Assembly (NCBI RefSeq): GCF_016545825.1
Contig: NC_052616.1
Location: 434,001-498,000 of the forward strand
DNA length: 64,000 nucleotides
Direction of reading: 5' to 3'
Origin: Eucalyptus grandis
Lineage: Eukaryota; Streptophyta; Magnoliopsida; Myrtales; Myrtaceae
Numbering within the stretch: the stretch's first letter is position 1; each line of letters begins with the position of its first letter. The translations under genes and the position numbers were made by a program. The notes under the pieces were generated by a model. The model was not told where the DNA came from and did no database searches. It saw nothing but the letters and a program-made list of their open reading frames with translations. Positions 20,456-48,627 of the stretch are shown here, one piece after another.

Positions 20456-23400
20456 ATGGAAACGAATATGAGTAGAATGGTTACACTGAATGGTTCAAAT
20501 TATCATATCTGGAAAGGGAAGATGGAAGATCTTTTATATGTGAAAGATTTTTATTTGCCTCTGTATTTCTTTGAAGAGAAACCAGAGAATAAAACTGACG
20601 TTGAATGATCTATATTTCATCGTCAAGTGTGTGGTTATATCAGGTAGTGGGTAGATGATAATGTTTTGAACCATATTATTGAGGAAACACATGCATGCAG
20701 TTTATGGGATAAGCTCGAACAGTTATATGCTCGAAAGACTGGGAATAATAAGTTATTTTTGATCAAACAGATGATGGCTCTGAGATATCATGATGGTACT
20801 CGTTTGACTGATCATTTAAATTTTTTTCAAGGAATTATAAATTAGTTGGCTGCGATGGGAATCAAGTTTTATGATGAGATACAAGCACTATAGTTGCTTG
20901 GTACTTTGCCGGACTCATGGGAGACGTTCCGAACATCTTTGTCTAACTCTGCCCCAAATGGTACAATTACCATGGATTTAGCCAAGAGTAGTATTTTGAA
21001 TGAAGAGATGAGAAGGAAGACACAGGGATCGTCCTCTTCACATTCTAATGCTTTGGTTGTTGAGAAAAGGGGGAGAAGTGAGTCTCGAGGCCCGAGAAAT
21101 AGAGATAAAAGTCGAGACAAAAGCAGAGGTAAGTATAATAAATTTGCTAATGTTGAGTGTCATTATTGTCATCAGAAGGGACATATTCAGAGATTTTGTC
21201 GCCAGTTAAAAAGGGAGAAACAAAAGGAGAAAGGTAAAGAGAAGAAAAGTGATGATGACAGTGATGACAATCGTGTCGCTGCACTTAAAGAAGACTTTCT
21301 CACTATTTTTGATGGTGATGTAGTGAATTTTGTTTCTCATGAGACTAGTTGGGTAATTGATAGTGGTGCATCCGTTCATGCTACATCTCATAGGGATTTC
21401 TTTACATCATACAGGTCAGGTGACTTCGGATCTGTGAAGATGGGAAATAATGGACTAGCTCAAGCTGTAGGCATCGGTGATGTATGCCTAGAAACCAGCA
21501 ATGGCACAAGGTTAGTATTAAATAATGTTAAACATATATCTGATATCTGCTTGAATTTGATTTCTACAGGCAAGTTGGATGATGAGGGGTATTGCAGCAC
21601 CTTCAGTAATGGTCAATGGAAGCTCACCAAAGGTTCTCTTGTTGTGGCTAGAGGTGAAAAATATTATTCGTTATACATTATGCAGGCAAAATTGTCTACA
21701 GACAAAATTAATGCAGTAGATAGCGAAGATGTAGCTGAGTTATGGCATAAGAGACTCAGTCACATTAGTGAGAAGGGTTTGTCAATATTGGCCAAGAAGA
21801 AGCTCCTTTCAGGATTGAAAAGTTCAGCGCTAAAGAAGTGTGCTCACTGTTTAGCAGGAAAACAGAACAGAGTTGCATTTAAAAGCTCCCCTCCTTCAAG
21901 AAAGTCAGGTATACTAGATTTAGTGCATTCTGATGTTTGTGGTCCTATGAAAAGAAAATCACTTGGTGGCTCTATTTATTTTGTTACCTTCATAAATGAT
22001 TTTTCAAGGAAAATTTGGATTTATACCTTGAAAACTAAAAATCAAGTGTTAGATGCTTTTAAGCAATTTCAGGCTTCAGTTGAGAGATAGGCTGAAAAGA
22101 AATTGAAATGCATCAGAACTGATAACGATGGAGAGTATATTGGACATTTTGATGAATACTGCAGACAACAAGGTATTCGACATCAAAAGACACCTCTCAA
22201 GACGCCTCAGTTAAATGGCTTAGCTGAGAGAATGAACAGAACATTAGTTGAAAGGGTAAGATGCTTACTTTCACAGTCAAAGCTATCTGGATCCTTTTGG
22301 GGTGAAGCTTTAAGTACAGTTGTGCATGTATTAAATCTTACTCCATGCGTTCTTTTAGAGTTTGATGTTCCTAATAGAGTTTGGACAGGCAAAGAAGTTT
22401 CTTATGATTATTTGCGTGTATTTGGGTGCAAAGCATTTGTGCATATTCCCAAAGATGAGAGGTCTAAACTTGATGTGAAAACACGACAAAGTGCATATTT
22501 ATTGGTTATGGACAGGATATGCTTGGCTACAAATTTTATGATCCACTTGAAAAGAAAATTGTAAGAAGCGAGACGTTGTGTTTATGGAAGATCAAACAAT
22601 AGAGGATATTGAGAAATCAGAGATGATTTCAGCACCACGGAGTTAGTGATAATCTGGTTGATTTAGATCCAGTTCCTCTTACAAACATTCCTACACAGGT
22701 TGATGAAGAGCAGCAAGAAGTCAATGTTCCAAATAACGCACATGTTCCTGAACATGTTGAAATAGATAATATTATTCCTGAACCAGAGGCTCAATTAGAT
22801 GTTCCACTGGATGTTCCAGTCTGGAGATCCATTAGAGACCGACGACCTTCCACAGGTATTCGAAGATGAGTATGTATTATTGACTGATGCGGGTGAACCC
22901 AGTGTTATGCGAAGCAATAGAAGATGAGTATAAAAGCAATTGGTTCGATGCTATGCGAGATGAGATGCAGTCACTTTATGATAATCATACTTTTGAATTG
23001 GTGAAGTTACCTAAAGGTAAAAGAGCTTTGAAGAACAAGTGGGTATATAGGTTGAAGCAAGATGAACATACTTTACAACTACGGTACAAAGCTAGATTGG
23101 TTGTTAAGGGATTTGGTCAGAGAAAAGGTATTGATTTTGATGATATATTTTCTCCGGTAGTGAAAATGTCTTCTATCCGTGTGGTACTAGGCTTGGCAGC
23201 TAGCCTAGATTTAGAAATTGAGCAAATGGATGTTAAAACGGCCTTCCTACATGGTGATTTGGAGGAAGAGATATACATGGAACAACTTGAGGATTTCAAA
23301 GTGAAAGGGAAAGAGGATTATGTGTGCAAATTGAAGAAAAATCTCTATGGCCTAAAACAAGCACCGAGACAGTGGTATAAGAAATTTGCGTCAGTTATGA

Positions 23401-24459
23401 CAGAACAGGGCTATAAGAAGACTTCCTCGGATAACTGTGTGTTTGTCCAAAAATTTTATGACGATGACTTTATTATTCTCTTGCTTTATGTTGATGATAT
23501 GCTGATTATTGGCAGGAATGCTTCAAGAATTGAGTTATTAAAGAAACAGTTGAGCAAGTATTTTGCCATGAAAGACTTGGGCTCAGCGAAGCAGATTCTT
23601 GGCATTAGAATTACCCGAGACAGAGTTGCTAAGAAGTTATTTTTGTCACAAGAGAAATATATCGAGAAGATCCTTCAGAAATTTTACATGGACAAGGCTA
23701 AAGTGGTTAGTACTCCTCTTGCTGCCCACTTTAAGTTAAATATGATGCAAAGTCCTACGACCGATAAAGAGAAGAACGTTATGGAAAGTGTTCCATATGC
23801 TTTTTGTAGGAAGCTTAATGTATGCGATGGTATGTACACGCCCGAGACTTGGCGCATGCGGTTGGCGTTGTTAGTCGCTATTTGTCAAATCTAGGCGAGA
23901 GCATTGGAATGCGGTGAAGTGGATTATGAGGTATCTTCGGGGAACTTCAAATTTGAAACTCGGTTTCGAGACCGGGAAACTTGAGTTAGTTGGATACAGA
24001 TTCCGACTTGGCGGGAGATATTGATACTCGTAAATCTACTTTGGTTATTTGATTTCTTTTGCGGGTGGAGCTGTGTCATGGAAGTCAAGATTGTAGAAGT
24101 GTGTTGCACTTTCTACAACTGAAGTTGAATTTATTGCAGCGACTGAAGCTAGTAAAGAGATGCTATGGATGAAGAAGTTCTTAGAAGAACTTGGGTTCAA
24201 GCAAAAGAGGTATGTGTTATTTTGTGATAATCAAAGCGCAATTCATCTTGGTAAGAATTCATCTTTTCATTCTAGATCGAAACATATTGATGTTAGATAT
24301 TATTGGATAAGGGATGTTCTAGATGAAAAGTTGTTGGAACTTGAGAAAATTCATACGGATCATAATGGCTCCGATATGATGACAAAGACTCTACCAAGAG
24401 AGAAGCTTGAACATTGCCGTTTGATAGCAGGGATGGTGAATCCCTCCACATTGTCGTGA
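20456..24459 (+). pseudogene. Copia gag-pol, inactivated
   Basis: The frame opens at ATG 20456 (Gag). The zinc knuckle (CHYCHQKGHIQRFC) is at about 21158-21199 and the protease DSGA at about 21355. Next come the pre-integrase LWHKRLSH and the integrase (about 21740-22560). Reverse transcriptase spans about 22905-23700, with YVDDM near 23488. RNase H spans about 24090-24400, with TTEVEFIA, DNQSAI and KHIDVRYYWIRD, and the frame ends TGA 24457-24459. In-frame stops interrupt the Gag frame at 20606 (TGA), 20645, 20843 and 20891 (TAG), and the integrase at 22088 (TAG). Frameshifts lie near 22500, 22570 and 22890, with more between reverse transcriptase and RNase H. No functional polyprotein can be made. 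Confidence 0.95.
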
Positions 24460-39440: not shown

Positions 39441-40249
39441 GCTCTAACCCTAACCCTGGTCAGCTCCTGCAGTTCCAGGAGCTCCAAAGTTCCAAATCTC
39501 TCTCTCTCTGACTGTCTCCCTTCTCTCCCCCTTCCCTCCCCCATCTCATCATACATACGCTTTGCTAGAAAGAGAAAGCTTAAAGCCTCCTGCTTTCCTC
39601 ATTTTCTCGTACCATTTTAACCGAAAACTGTTCGTTTTCTGGGAAAATTCCTTCTCCCTCTTTTGCCGACCTCCCCACAATTTGTGCGTTTTCCTTCCTC
39701 TCCCCCCCATCCCCTGCTTTTAACCGGGAAAGGAGCGACTCCAAATTTTCTCTCTCCCTCTCTCTCTCTCTCTCTCTCACTCCGACCCTCCCCCACACTC
39801 GCCGCCGCCCGATTGGTCCCCGCGTCCTTTTCTCTCTCAATCTCTCCGAGGCGATTCGTCTGATGATCCCATTTGACTCCCCTGCTCCGCCGGTTTGTAT
39901 CTCGTCTGCTTTTGCTTCCGGGTTCTTTGGTTCTTTGGTTTTTCTTTTTTGTCCATGCTCTCGCTAGTTGGTAATCGAGATCTGTGATTGTATAGCCCAT
40001 GGCGGAGTGCGAGGTTGAAATTCGGGGCGGTTGCTTTTTAGCGGTCGAATGCGTGGGAATTTGGAGTTCTCCTTAGAAAGCAAGGGTTTTGTGTTGCTTT
40101 GCGGGTTTCGCGAGCTGAGATTCGATCTGGGTTTTCGAGGTTGGACAGATTTTTAGTAGTGAGCGGCAAGGGCTGTGGGTTGTGGTTCGTGGGTCGTGGG
40201 TGCTTTTTTTTTTTTTTTTTTATTTTTTATGGTTGGGGGTGGGATAGAG
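39441..40249 (+). promoter_or_regulatory. Probable promoter/5' leader of the bHLH gene
   Basis: Pyrimidine-rich leader with CT tracts at about 39498-39510 and 39750-39779, as in many plant 5' UTRs. A telo-box-like CTAACCCTAACCCT lies at 39443-39456 and a T run at about 40205-40222, shortly before the ATG. The exact transcription start is not determinable here. Confidence 0.45.
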
Positions 40250-42091
40250 ATGAAGATAGAGCTAGGTGCTGGGTATGGCCCGTGGAATGATGAAGAGAAA
40301 GCCATGGTGGCTGCTGTCTTGGGAACCCGGGCATTCGATTATTTAGTGTCGAGATCAGTTTCCAATGAAAATCTCTTGATGTCCATTGGGAGCGACGAGA
40401 ATATGCAGGACAAGCTCTCGAATCTCGTGGACCACCCCAACTCTTCCAACTTCAGCTGGAACTATGCCATCTTCTGGCAGATTTCCAGGTCCAAGTCGGG
40501 GGATTGGCTATTGGGTTGGGGGGATGGGTCCTGTAGGGAGCCGAAAGATGGAGAAGAATCCGAAGCGACTCGAATCCTTAATTTGAGACTCGAGGACGAG
40601 GGCCAGCAGAGGATGAGGAAACGGGTGCTGGACAAGTTGCACACCGTCTTTGGTGGGTCGGATGAGGACAATTATGCTCTCGGCTTGGACCGGGTGACGG
40701 ACATGGAGATGTTCTTTCTGGCGTCCATGTACTTCTTGTTTCCCTCGGGAGAAGGGGGTCCAGGCAAATGTTTTGCCTCGGAGAAGCATGTATGGCTGAC
40801 AGATGCACTCAAGTCGTCTTCTGATTATTGCGTTCGGTCATTTCTTGCAAAGTCTGCAGGGATTCGGACAATAGTTTTGGTTCCGACTGACGTTGGGGTT
40901 GTAGAGTTGGGTTCGGTTAGATCTGTCCCGGAAAGCTCGGAGCTGGTGCAGACCATAAGATTGTCTTTCTCGACGAATTCATTTATGTCGGTTAAGCCAA
41001 TAGCTGCCTTACCCATGACGAATGAAAAGAAGGACGAAAACGCACCCTTCTCTAATTTGGCGTTGGCAGGTAAGGGTGAGGCAATCTCCAAGATATTTGG
41101 TAAGGAGTTAACCACAGTTAACAGTCCTGGCCATTATAGGGAGAAACTTGCCGTTAGAAAGATGGACTCCAGGCAATCGTGGGAACCTCACCATAACGGA
41201 AGTAAACTCCCATTTTCAACTCCTAGAAATGGCACCCAAGACACGAGTTGGGCTCATCATGCTCATGGCGTAAAGCAGTTGAGTCCTGTGGAATTTTATG
41301 GCTCTCAAACCTCAGCCAGTAAATTAGAGGAGCGGATGAACAGCGGTAGGAATGATTTTGGATTGAACCGCTACCCAACACCAAAGCAGGTGCAAATGCA
41401 AATCGACTTTACAGGTGCCACTTCAAGGCCTTCTGTGATAACCCGACCATTCACTGCCGACTCTGAGCATTCTGATGTTGAAGCTTCATGCAAGGAAGAG
41501 CAGGGTGGTGCAGCAAACGAGAAGAGACCAAGAAAAAGAGGCAGGAAGCCTGCGAATGGAAGAGAAGAACCTCTCAATCATGTGGAGGCAGAACGGCAGC
41601 GACGTGAGAAGCTGAACCAGAGGTTCTATGCCCTTCGTGCAGTGGTGCCTAATATATCCAAGATGGATAAAGCTTCATTATTAGGAGATGCCATTGCTTA
41701 TATAAATGAGCTTCAAGCGAAGCTCAAAATCATGGAAGCAGATCGGGAGAGGTTTGGAAGCACTTCAAGAGATGCATCAGACGTCGAGGTTAATGCCACC
41801 GCAGAGCAATCAAACCAATCTCCAGATGTTGATATCCAAGCTACTGCTGCTGATGAGGTTGTCGTGAGGGTCAGCTGTCCTTTGAATTCTCACCCTGCAT
41901 CAAGAGTTATCCAGGCTTTCCAAGAGGCGCAGGTCACCGTTCTTGACTCGAAGCTTTCGACAGCCAATGATACTGTGTTCCATACATTCCTGATAAAGTC
42001 GCAAGGGTCTGAACAGATGACAAAGGAGAAGTTAACTGCAGCATTTTCCCGTGAATCCAACTCCTTAGAGCCATTGTCGTCTGTTGGCTAG
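40250..42091 (+). CDS. bHLH13: bHLH13/JAM-type MYC-like transcription factor
   Basis: Intronless, 613 residues from ATG 40250. The open frame starts 75 nt earlier, but that extension is a poly-Phe artefact of a T run and the conserved part begins MKIELG. The N-terminal bHLH-MYC_N region spans about 10-200 ([79 protein letters not shown]). A basic stretch ([16 protein letters not shown]) precedes the bHLH domain at about 440-492. Its basic region, [11 protein letters not shown], has the His-Glu-Arg set for G-box binding. An ACT-like C-terminal region follows. The family (bHLH17/13/3, JAM1-3) is known as JAZ-interacting repressors opposing MYC2 in jasmonate signalling. Assignment to bHLH13 is by recognition of the whole protein. 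Confidence 0.93.
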
Positions 42092-42367
42092 TGGGCGATG
42101 TGCACTTATGCTATAGTGGATAGGCGTAATGCATAGGGAAAGCCCCTTTGGAAGCTCGATCAGAGTTTTGGATTGCTGCAGAGTTTCCTCAAGGAGTGGT
42201 TGAGCCAAAAGGAGAAAAATGACTTCCTGTTGACCAATTAGGACAGCAAATTTACTTTCATTTTTTGTTCTTTTTCTTTTCATGGTAAACAATTCTCTGA
42301 TAAGCAAATATTCTTGAAAGTTTAATTGAGTCTGTAAGTTTATACCATTTGTGGCTGTTCTGAACAT

Positions 42368-43662
42368 TAATATAGTTTCTCTTTATATTTTTCCTTTTGA
42401 TGGTTTACCCTCATGGTCCCTGTATTCACTTACTTTTCCTTAATACTCAGTTCGTGTTCTCTGTCGAAATTTGTGTAGTTCGATGAAGTAATTAAAATGG
42501 AAGATGAGGAATCATTTTGCATTTAACATGTAAACGAAGCAGTTGAGTTCTCCATTGCCCTTTCTTCCATTGGGTGTTCTGTGTCCAGACTCATTTTCTA
42601 TTTTTCAGTCCTGGTTCCGGAAGTGCTCTTCCACTGAAGCGGAAAGCTGTCCCTGTCGCCTGGGCAAGTTGAATCCTTTGTGGGCAGTTTTAACCCGGAA
42701 GCACTGGCACGTTTTTCTCATTGCTATAGTCAATCTCTATCATGGCCTCCGCTTTTTAGGAGGGAATGAATCTGAGCCTATGGACGGAATTGTCCTGCTT
42801 GCTTTTGACAAAAGAAATGTGCAGTGAATGTTCGGTTTCATGAAGTGTGTTCCTTGTGGGCTGCATTAGCAGGCAACAGCGAGAGGGGCTTGCAGGGAGC
42901 ATTGCAACGGCATGAATTTAGGTGTGACTTGCGGATGTTGAATACCGGAGGACAGTTGTGCCGAGAACATATTGCGGCGCAAAAATTGTCACGCCATGTC
43001 TTTCTAGGCAGCTGCGACTACGAAACCCTATATTGGTTCTAATTTTCAACCTAGTGGCAAAAGTAAGATCATGAAAAGTAGAAATTGCTCATCACGGGCT
43101 CGGAAAATATAGAGGTAATCAGCTAAAAAACAAAGAGCTTGCTGTGTGAGCATCATGCGAACAATAGCACCATTCTAGTGCCAATACTTTCCTTCAACCT
43201 TTTTGCTTATGCTTGACCCAAAAAAAGAAAAAAAGAAAAAAAACCTTTTTGCTTTTGGAAAGCAATGCCTTGCTTCAACCTTGTCCAAGAAAAAGCAGAG
43301 ACTCTGCATCAGTCGACATGTATCCGCTCGCTGTCCAATGCAAAATTCTCCAATAGATCTATATTTGTGAATGAAAATGCTTTAGGTTGGAAAAGAGTAA
43401 CGTCAATGATTTGTTTATGCTATCAATCACCCTATACTTTTTCTCAGCAATTGCCAACACGAAAATCCAATATGATACATAGAATCACCAACTTCATAAG
43501 CAAAGCTATTGAATAAATCCCGGCCCTCAGGGGAAAACTTCACGGTTAAGTGATCCCTTAATTCTAGATCTGCAGACAACAGGATCAATGCAGAAAAACA
43601 AGCATGTGTATAGGGTGCTACTACTTGGAAGGTCTGTATATCCAGAAATGACTCCGGTGTCG
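42368..43662. other. Intergenic between tail-to-tail genes
   Basis: After the bHLH 3' UTR I see no gene. In particular, no protease, integrase or reverse-transcriptase sequence follows the Gag-like exon that ends at 43663 on the minus strand. Confidence 0.6.
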
Positions 43663-46600
43663 TCAGCAATGTCCCACGTCTGTTTGTGTAGGTAAAGTGA
43701 GATTTTCTGGCTCTATTATAAGATTCGCTTCCTTGTCACTTTTTCTACTTCGGCAATGCCTCGAAATGTGTCCCTTCTTACCACAATTATAACAAACCAC
43801 CGGCTTGCCAACTGTCTCAGATTCTCTTATTTTTGGAGATTTTCCAGAGTTCCTTATATTGTTATCGCTGGATCTAACTTTACCTGATAGCTGAATACCA
43901 GGAGGTTCCTTGGACCTGTATTGATTTTGCAACTCTTCCTCAACCCTTAAATGATTCATCAGCACCTGGAAAGACAAATGCTCATAGTGCATCAACTTCA
44001 AGCAGAAATCCTTCCAAGATGGGGGTAGTTTAGATATGATGACACTGACATGGAAATTCTCATCTACTGAAATTCCAGCAGCCACAATTGAATCTGCCAA
44101 GCTGTTCAACTCTTGGACTTGCTCAACGACTGATTTACCATGAACCATCTCATATTCAATATACCTTTTGACTTGCAATCTCTTAGTCCCATATTCTTCA
44201 TGAAGATAAACCAGTCTCAGCTTTTCCCACAGATCTTTTGCACTGTGAGTGTTCTGTGAGTACTTATAGAAGAGATCATCTGACAGAGAACTCAATATGT
44301 TGCGACGGCAAATGTAGTCATCATTCATCCATTTCTGTTCTGCAGCTTTTGCTTGAGCAATTTCTCCACCGCTTGCTTCTGGTATTAAATTGGCCACTGG
44401 GTGTGGATCAGTGAGAACATATGCAATATTTAATTGCTTCAGGAAAAACTCCATCTGTTGTGCCCAGTGGTGATAATTCTTTCCATCAAAACGGTTAATC
44501 TCAATGGGTACAAGACCCTGAACTAATGTGGCCATTGAGTTAGGAACAGCATCGATGGCAACATCAATGGTTTGCGGCCTGCAGCAATCAATTGATTAAA
44601 ACCATTCAATGGCCAATCGGCAAAACAATTTTGTAAAAAGAGTGCTCTTCGATAGAGTATGGAAACAAGTATTCACTTGTCATTGTGTATTGGTCAGGAA
44701 GGAATCATATAACAACTGTGAAGGATTACATCCCTGAGCTCTGACCATTATGAATATACATCAATAATCACTTAGATTTCAAATGTGATATTCGCACCTT
44801 AATTTTGACTCCAACTTTTTAATAGCTTCCTCTATTGTAGGGAGACTGCTCCTCAAAGCTGACCACTGGTCTTTTGTTAAGATTATTCCTAGAATGCATC
44901 AGAACAGGCATAAATATTTGCATAAACACACTTAATGGCAAAATGGGAAAACTACAATTCCAGCAAATGCACGGAAAAAAATGCTTATAGAATTCAGAAA
45001 AACATACAGGACTACAAAAATCTTGTGTGAAAAAAGAAAAGTAAGCTAGCAATGTGCAGCATTAACATTTATGACAGGCGGTAGAACAAAGAAGCAAAAA
45101 CAGTTCTTGGACCTGAAGATAAGTTATAGTAATCTTCTCAGATTTTTCACACATGTGCCATCCTTCCATATAGTTCCATATAGGCTTGAGACAAAGGTAA
45201 TGGATGTTGGAGGAAAGGTGGGGGGGGGGTGGGGGCGCGGAGATAGAGACAGAGACAGTGCTCTAATGCTTGGAGATATAGAAACAAGGGTGATTAAATG
45301 TACGTGAAACACTTCCTTACTCACTATGTCCATCTCACACTCATAACTTCCATGCATCTCTTGCCTCAATAATATGATCACATTCGACGCCTTGTTGTCT
45401 TCTACACATATAACAATTCTGAAGCCAATGCAAATCCATAGAAAGCTCCGAAGGAGTTGACTTGCTGTGGGACTTCAATCTCAGCAAATTACAGTGAATA
45501 TTTATAGTTAGAGGTTCAGAAGCCACCACAGCACATTTATATGACTTTACACAGCAGCATATTGGAGTCAATACAAGACAATGAGACGCACAACGTTGAT
45601 AGAAACGCAAAGAATTATACTGAGACGAACATACTCTTTTAGTAAAAGCCACTAAAGCAGTTGGAATTGCAGATATTAACAACATAAACACGAGTGTCAA
45701 TTATATGCAACATCAATCAATGATCAGATAAACCATTGTCATCAAAGCTTAGGCAAGCTCACAGGCAGCAAAGAGTAAGAAAGACCATCCACAATTATTA
45801 TACCTGAACCAGCTAGAATAAAAAGATGAGCATCATTGTAGATTTAGATAAAGGAGAGAATGTTATAAAAATATGTGCAATCACCTTTAGCACTGGGAAA
45901 ATGCTTTCCATCTTTGACATGGTAGTCCTTCATTGATACCCTATTTGTGCCTTTATAATCTTGAATAGTCACATACCTCCTATCTGAAAGCTACACCAAC
46001 ATCAAATGATGATTTCAACGTTGTTGATGTGGCTTATCCAATCACAAAATGTAGAATAATCAGTCGGCCACAAGAGGAATATAATGAAAATGTTACTATC
46101 AGTACCAACTCTTTTAACAGCAACGCAAGTAGACCCTCAAGAGGTTCTCGAGCTGAGTCCCAATTGCCAACCAAGGAAAACCACGAAAAATCCAAGAAAG
46201 ACAATACCCACCAAGTGAGAATCTATAATGTTCAATTTGCGACTGCCTATTGCACTTATCTACTACTGCCAAGTGAGAATCTACAATATTGGATTTACTA
46301 CTGCCGATAGGACTTTGTCTAAAACTGTCGTATTTCCTCCAATTAGGACTCCTCACCAATCTTATTCCCATGTTACTGGCAGCCACAGGGCTTCAGAAGT
46401 AAGAACTCTTTAATGCTCCCTAAGTTAACATCAGCACACTAGACAGCTAAAATGTAAACTCGCCGTTCTCCTCAGCAAACAAAGAGACTGTATCCAATAA
46501 AGCTTTTGCAGAACTATCAACTTCGCCCAATCTAGGACTGTCCTCTACAGAAGAATGCGGGGAAAAAAGAAATCTCCATTTGACCGTCTGGCACAAGAGA

Positions 46601-47133
46601 TGCTTGTGCGTGCGCGATCGGAACCTTAAAGAAATACACATAGGCACCTCTTCACAAACCCAGACATCCATGGCTTTCTGACACAATTGATGCAACTGAA
46701 TACAATCTCACCATGAATTAGCAGACAAAAACTAAGTGACAGGCGAAATAGTTCACTTGCTGTACATGCAGTCGATGAACGCAATCTACCCAAAGCAGAG
46801 CGGTAGGGTTTCGCTTTCAACCTCACAAATGAGGCGTTCTCCACTTTCGCCGAGCTCCTTCTTCACTTCCCTCGCCGGCGCCTCCGCGGCAACCCCGTCG
46901 ACCTCTCCTCGGACATCCGATCCGCCTCCCTTGCCCCCGTCCTCGCCCGCAGCGTCGGAGAGGAGGAACGACTCCAGGACGCTCCGCACCAGCTTCTTGC
47001 TGTCGATGTCGGAGAGATCGAAGCCCAGCTTCTCGGAGGCCTCGCTCCGGAGCTTGAACTCGGTCATGGCTTCCATGTCGGCGCGCCGCAGTATCGCCAT
47101 GACCGTCTCTTCGATCTTCCGTCTCGTCTCCAT
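43663..47133 (-). CDS. DEK_C-PC4-Gag(UBN2)-CCHC fusion protein, KELP-like coactivator with captured retrotransposon Gag
   Basis: There are four minus-strand exons: 47133-46822, 45990-45885, 44888-44798 and 44578-43663. Lengths of 312, 106, 91 and 916 nt give 475 codons (474 residues) with every junction in phase. Exon 1 encodes a DEK_C domain at about 5-58 (RKIEETVMAILRRADMEAMT, ASEKLGFDLS) and an acidic linker. The PC4 domain spans exons 1-3, about residues 98-169 (GERLICE, then LSDRRYVTIQDYKG, DYHVKDGK, GIILTKDQWSALRSSLPTIE). PC4-type domains bind single-stranded DNA and assist Pol II transcription. Exon 4 is a single long exon encoding a Copia-type Gag, UBN2, from about 185 (FDGKNYHHWAQQMEFFLKQ), and a CCHC knuckle at 432-445 (CYNCGKKGHISRHC). 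It ends 29 residues later. No pol domains, LTRs or stops are present. I recall a similar arrangement annotated as a zinc-knuckle protein in Arabidopsis (At4g00980), unverified. It is divergent with CNX3. Confidence 0.88.
45219..45262. repeat. G-run and GA-rich simple repeat in intron 2 of the fusion gene
   Basis: A run of nine or more G with GGTGGGGG, then GAGATAGAGACAGAGACAG. It is low-complexity sequence inside the 996-bp intron. Confidence 0.7.
46209..46316. repeat. Short tandem duplication in intron 1 of the fusion gene
   Basis: Two diverged units share CCAAGTGAGAATCTA(T/C)AAT and a following ACTACTGCC-like block, spaced about 56 bp apart, in the 831-bp first intron. Confidence 0.6.
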
Positions 47134-47700
47134 GCTGCTTCTGGATGGGCGGGAGGAGCTACTTCAGTTTGAGCTCCTTGTCTCTCTTAGCACTTAGCAG
47201 CCCCTTTATATATCCAGCGCTTTTCTTATTTTAAAAAAGACGTCTTTTTTATAAGTACTTTTTTTATTATTATTATTACGGTATAGCTTCGCCATATGCA
47301 GCGGGGCGGCTGAGAGCCATCTTCTTCTTTCCCTGCGAGGACATAAAATGCGGGATCTTCAGCCAAGGCATTGAAAGACTTCGATAACCTGTAGAAAGCT
47401 TAGCAAGATTCAACTGCGACGTCCAGGTGTGTACCTTTGATGACGTTTGCACACTGGTTTTCCTATTTCCTTCCTTTCATTTGTATACGACTTTGTTCGC
47501 CCGTCACGCCCTCCACCTGTTTGCTGAAATGCCCCACCCACCGCCATGAAATCCGTTTCTGCTCGAAAGCTCTTTACTTTGACACGGACGCTGCTTGCGT
47601 CCTGCTTCCAGAATTTGGTTTGGTTCCTCTCACCGGCTATTGCCTTGTTAGATTTCTCCAGCTTCGCTGGTAGTTTTAGCTCCGGCGGAATCAAGCTAGC
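47134..47700. promoter_or_regulatory. Divergent promoter between the fusion gene and CNX3
   Basis: The 567 bp between the two start codons is the only space for both promoters. A TATA box for the minus strand (GGATATATAAAGG) lies at about 47202-47215, about 70 nt upstream of the fusion-gene ATG, placing its start near 47175. No clear TATA is seen on the plus strand close to CNX3, which is common for housekeeping genes. Confidence 0.6.
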
Positions 47701-48627
47701 ATGTTGCTCCGTCGGCTTTCCTCAAAGTTTGCTGCTTCGGCAAGACCCTTTTGCAGTAGCACCAGACATGATATAGCTGCTACCATTTCTGAACTGAATA
47801 AGGTGAGGTAATCTATTCCAGAAAATTGAAAGAAAAATTAACATTAGTAACACGGTTCATAGGCAGACAATGATCACATCGTATGGAGATATGAAATACA
47901 TAGGATGCATTTTCCTGCAGCTTAAAACTTGACGTGATTGGCTGCTCTCTTGATTCATCGTTGTTATTTAGTCCGTTTTAACATTTTGTTGGGAGCTAAC
48001 AGATTTTGAGATACAAAATTGTTGATGTTGCATCAGGAAATGGAAGTTGTTTTCGGTGAGCCTCCATCGAATGGATTCGGCGCTTCTGCGGCGGATGGTG
48101 TTGGGGCACAGGACACCCAATTTACGTCTCAAGTATCTGAAGAAGGTGCAGGTGGCTTGACGCACATTGGTGATACAGGAGAAGCTCAAATGGTTGATGT
48201 TTCTCCCAAAGTAGTTAGCAAACGAACTGCCACTGCCAGCTGCAAAGTGATGCTGGGGAAGAAGGTGTTCGATTTGGTGTCCGCCAACCAGATGGCGAAG
48301 GGTGATGTCTTGAGTGTGGCCAAGATCGCAGGAATAAGTGGGGCGAAGCATACGAGCAGCCTCATTCCGTTGTGCCACAACATCACACTGACTCACGTTC
48401 GCGTTGATCTGAAGCTGAACCCTGACGACTTCAGTGTGGAAATAGAAGGGGAGGCCACATGTTCCGAGAAAACCGGGGTCGAGATGGAAGCGATGACAGC
48501 TGTGACCATAGCTGGTCTTACAGTATATGATATGTGCAAGGCTACTTCAAAGGATATCCAGATTTCAAACGTAAGACTTGAGCGTAAAACTGGTGGGAAG
48601 AGCGGGGATTGGTTTAGAGGAAAGTAA
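47701..48627 (+). CDS. CNX3: Cyclic pyranopterin monophosphate synthase, mitochondrial (MoaC)
   Basis: Two exons, 47701-47802 and 48037-48627, joined AAG|GAA in phase (AATAAG|GTGAGG donor, ATCAG acceptor), encode 230 residues. Exon 1 supplies an Arg/Ser/Ala-rich, acid-free start (MLLRRLSSKFAASARPFCSS), a typical mitochondrial presequence. The MoaC domain begins near residue 90 (MVDVSPKVVSKRTATA). It carries the conserved KGDVLSVAKIAGISGAKHT, LIPLCHNI and TGVEMEAMTA motifs with the catalytic-site Lys and His and the paired acidic residues, then KATSKDIQI and the terminal KSGDW. The enzyme converts the CNX2 product into cPMP, the second half of the first step of molybdenum cofactor synthesis, in the mitochondrial matrix. 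It is divergent with the DEK_C-PC4-Gag gene. Confidence 0.96.

Follow-up and report, generated by a model that had tools for sequence, protein, structure and literature searches.

A Myrtaceae member of the Ctrg10 / HadGAG2 family, in which a copia Gag follows a KELP-like coactivator module and has very probably been kept by selection

A 64,000-nucleotide stretch of the Eucalyptus grandis genome (the window; contig NC_052616.1, positions 434,001 to 498,000, forward strand) carries on its minus strand a single gene, hereafter the fusion gene, in which a KELP-like transcription coactivator module is followed by a copia retrotransposon Gag. We find that this gene very probably belongs to a conserved eudicot fusion, Ctrg10 / HadGAG2, that originated from a KELP duplicate and a copia gag, with a functional Gag part kept by selection. 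As such, it represents a clear and old case of a retrotransposon capsid gene retained by plants within a host transcription protein; our results point to the Gag core as its most constrained part and show its probable construction from KELP.

The fusion gene spans 3471 bases and has four exons and three introns, all with GT donors and AG acceptors. Exon 1 (47133-46822) contains the start codon and DEK_C (about 47127-46963) and ends in phase 0; exon 2 (45990-45885; 106 nt, the length found in the KELP paralogue) encodes the first part of PC4 and ends in phase 1; and exon 3 (44888-44798) completes PC4 and ends in phase 2. Intron 3 (44579..44797), which the KELP paralogue does not have, leads to exon 4 (44578-43663), where the entire Gag part is located, i.e. 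the copia Gag core (about 44361-43921), the CCHC knuckle (about 43797-43750), and the stop codon. The joined exons form 1425 nt (474 codons plus stop) with no internal stops. Pfam matches over the curated cut-offs are found for DEK_C (residues 3-57, 36.6 bits), PC4 (residues 103-153, 51.9 bits), Retrotran_gag_2 (residues 243-389, 81.6 bits), and zf-CCHC (residues 431-446, 24.7 bits). Both the exon structure of the original prediction (canonical splice sites, in-phase junctions, and no stops) and its order of four domains in one gene are thus confirmed, and the strength of the Gag match rules out a chance open frame.

The same domain order, which the original prediction proposed to seek across plant proteins, is present in many eudicots, in agreement with its view that the fusion may be old. 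Two full-length protein searches each returned 209 proteins at E<=0.001, and the best 120 of 209 are listed. Among these listed matches, Syzygium (85%) and Corymbia (88%, covering 74% of the length) supply the nearest proteins that carry a name, and the named ones are eudicots as far as names tell, with one name incomplete and the rows labelled 'lgn' nameless. They include rosids, asterids, Santalales (Malania), and Nepenthes. Using the DEK_C-PC4 part of a Quillaja orthologue as query, 59 proteins were obtained from 708 candidates; the precomputed Pfam column lists Gag for 54 of these and not for P0132, P0137, P0140, P0143, and P0144. The fusion is not undescribed, as had been supposed: a protein of sunflower with DEK_C, PC4, copia Gag, and CCHC, HadGAG2, was in the literature by 2022, with homologues in 24 plant families that carry one, two, five, or six zinc knuckles, and the same article identifies it with Ctrg10, the GAG-KELP fusion described by Wang and Han 2021 (PMC9784723; doi 10.1093/molbev/msab101 for the 2021 study). 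Given the match in described domains and gene structure, the Eucalyptus gene is very probably a Myrtaceae member of this known family; what the present analysis computes is the intron comparison with KELP, the conservation of each part, and the capsid-fold match.

Conservation was measured in 41 proteins, i.e. the fusion protein and 40 others picked for spread from the full-length search. Mean pairwise column identity is highest in the Gag core (0.62), followed by the stretch just before it (0.56), PC4 (0.55), DEK_C (0.53), and the knuckle (0.52), with linkers and tail at 0.26-0.30. Pfam matches at E<=0.01 are present in all 41 proteins for Retrotran_gag_2 and DEK_C, in 40 for PC4, and in 29 for zf-CCHC, while the C-x2-C-x4-H-x4-C spacing is found in 40 of 41 (P0095 being without it). 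The strong conservation anticipated for the Gag part is therefore evident across these orthologues, and this pattern supports purifying selection acting on it.

Indirect support also exists for a spliced message. Specifically, the protein P0001, encoded on one 1688-base contig, covers all 474 residues and differs from the fusion protein at 3 of them; its source, 'lgn', presumably consists of assemblies of public read sets. Because the gene covers 3471 bases with three introns, a contig of this length is hardly genomic, and a spliced message is likely. Retention of intron 3 is predicted from sequence to yield a product of 175 residues without Gag, equal in length to the KELP-like paralogue, and the Prosopis protein P0132, named isoform X4, consists of DEK_C and PC4 only.

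The Gag exon has 130 scored matches in the 616.5-Mb genome, one of which is the exon; identity is 32-36% in the eight that follow it and does not exceed 38% in the remaining scored rows. With no close second copy of this exon, a retrocopy is an unlikely origin of the P0001 contig. Self-BLAST of 41001-48500 reveals no LTR-like pair, the sole repeat being 47 bases at 81%, and no pol-type Pfam match at E<=0.1 is found in the minus-strand open reading frames (ORFs) that were scanned, i.e. six just downstream and two in intron 2. Within these limits, the expected absence of long terminal repeats (LTRs) and pol holds and, together with the lack of a close copy, rules out a live or recent retrotransposon. 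The neighboring copia Gag (20489-21223, plus strand) shares 22% identity with the fusion Gag in an alignment and has the four stops attributed to it, which is the expected contrast to the conserved fusion Gag. From the reading of ORFs, this copia Gag opens a degraded copia element (20489-23894, plus strand) in which protease-, integrase-, and reverse transcriptase-like frames follow in pieces.

The abundance of copia fragments indicated by these 130 matches would allow for a neutral or artefactual fusion, in which a decaying fragment 3' of a KELP gene is joined to it by annotation only. We consider this extremely improbable, as it is contradicted by orthologues of the same order in many eudicots, by a contig of spliced length, and by a Gag core that is the best conserved part; indeed, the contig and the identical domain order of the orthologues rule out an annotation or assembly artefact.

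How the conserved fusion was built is suggested by its closest relatives in the genome. Besides the fusion gene itself, a search for PC4 matched two loci, C9 near 2.85 Mb and C5 near 10.10 Mb. The C5 gene is KELP-like: it encodes 175 residues with DEK_C and PC4, its exons end in phases 0 and 1, and its second exon has 106 nt. It has the first two introns of the fusion gene in common and not the third, and its stop falls just beyond the point where fusion intron 3 starts. For these reasons, the fusion looks like a duplicated KELP-type gene that gained a third intron and one copia gag 3' exon, consistent with the proposal that a KELP-like module acquired Gag as a single exon. In a tree that combines 41 Gags of fusion proteins with 13 copia Gags from the Eucalyptus genome (matches without a stop in the matched stretch, those with stops being excluded), the two groups part on one branch with support 68/74. 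Only one label change is needed, which fits a single capture of Gag. The midpoint root serves the drawing only, and two copia rows lie on a very long branch.

The predicted fold of the Gag part is a two-lobe copia capsid, and such a fold is compatible with the multimerization proposed in the original prediction. The predicted capsid matches Arc, MOAP1, and PEG10, and its C-lobe resembles two restriction factors, Ty1 p22 and Drt2. On the coactivator side of the protein, the fold is similar to PC4 and MoSub1. The resemblance to p22 and Drt2 raises the possibility of a restriction factor, whose fused capsid would co-assemble with and poison copia or virus Gag or capsid, while its KELP part would guide it into the nucleus or onto a viral movement protein. 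An arms-race role is reported to have been proposed for Ctrg10 (PMC9784723), and tomato mosaic virus movement is restricted when KELP is overexpressed (PMC11861069). We nevertheless see restriction as rather unlikely: the predicted capsid matches Arc, MOAP1, and PEG10 equally well, such that the fold does not point to restriction; identity between the Gag domain and the eight nearest other copia Gags in this genome is just 32-36%; and the domain is well conserved, whereas arms-race genes often change fast.

A literature search, mostly judged from listings, found no study of what the fusion does. The mechanism we favor, to which we give slightly less than an even chance when taken by itself, is that of a nuclear DNA-binding coactivator that self-associates through its capsid domain. 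In the nucleus, DNA would be bound by DEK_C and PC4 in the form of a PC4-type dimer. The capsid core would supply a second self-association surface, resulting in a higher-order, DNA-bound scaffold for transcription, and RNA or single-stranded DNA may be retained by the knuckle. Several points weigh against this reading and the origin described above. Nuclear location, DNA binding, and assembly of the fusion protein are all inferred; the full-length model has a predicted template modeling score (pTM) of 0.38, with domains not positioned relative to each other; and the root-mean-square deviation (rmsd) from the Copia capsid is 8.7 A overall, meaning that the model arranges the two lobes differently. 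The branch between fusion and copia Gags is weakly supported (68/74), being found in 68% of bootstrap trees, and, since the orthologues were gathered by similarity and gene predictions favor open frames, their conservation is not a codon-level test.

Lastly, a coactivator role fits badly with the weak PC4 of some Brassicaceae. Among nine proteins scanned, PC4 is under the Pfam cut-off in six (P0121, P0110, P0108, P0106, P0116, and P0122) and over it in three (P0097, P0117, and P0124), a proportion that is no rate because six were chosen for missing PC4 in the precomputed column; DEK_C and Gag are over their cut-offs in all nine. This is a hint that, in this family, Gag persists longer than PC4. 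PC4 that may erode while the capsid core stays fixed is in line with a different reading, in which the captured Gag is the working part: inside the plant nucleus it would build capsid-like assemblies tethered to DNA, with DEK_C anchoring them to chromatin. We find this improbable; if true, plants would possess a counterpart of Arc-like domesticated capsids that is bound to chromatin.

The Arabidopsis member of the family is probably AT4G00980. The A. thaliana protein P0121 (41% identity) has DEK_C and Gag, with PC4 at 12.2 bits against a cut-off of 25; we infer that it is AT4G00980, and another match, P0021, bears the name 'like AT4G00980'. As the original prediction said of a similar Arabidopsis locus, it is filed as a zinc knuckle (CCHC-type) family protein. 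It is assigned DUF4219, UBN2_2, and zf-CCHC_4 domains and listed among interactors of the ATR1 effector group in a large-scale survey (PMC4759884); it also occurs in a microarray table (PMC2837038) and among interactors of peroxisomal proteins (PMC3633942). The effector listing, and the fact that NLR receptors with integrated domains also include its Gag and knuckle domains (PMC4759884), could indicate an immune-network hub that is bound by pathogen effectors and acts mainly in defense signaling. Such a role seems improbable, given that it depends on one large-scale interaction listing, that the peroxisomal list suggests a possibly promiscuous bait, and that retroelement domains predicted in NLRs can reflect noise in the annotation.

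Two other genes lie near the fusion gene. A long open frame for a transcription factor of the bHLH-MYC type (40163-42091, plus strand) is convergent with it, and a MoaC exon (molybdenum cofactor synthesis; 48010-48627, plus strand; Pfam E 6.2e-53) is located upstream on the opposite strand.

We take KELP to be AT4G10920 and KIWI to be AT5G09250. AT4G10920 appears in the literature as AtNMDM2, and AT5G09250 is reported to interact with it in nuclei (PMC9039731). Like the KELP-like gene of the same genome, the fusion has DEK_C, PC4, and the first two introns; unlike KELP, it continues past PC4 with a third intron, Gag, and a knuckle. By contrast with a copia LTR retrotransposon, it is without flanking LTRs (41001-48500) and without a pol match in the scanned ORFs. 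It has in common with Arc, PNMA2, PEG10, Ty1 p22, and Drt2 a predicted two-lobe or C-lobe capsid fold, but its capsid is of plant copia origin and stands behind a transcription coactivator. With P0121, probably AT4G00980, it shares DEK_C and Gag, PC4 being under the cut-off in P0121. Compared with Ctrg10 / HadGAG2 as described in PMC9784723, nothing essential differs: four Pfam domains, a multi-exon gene, no flanking LTRs, and a GAG-KELP fusion found in many plant families.
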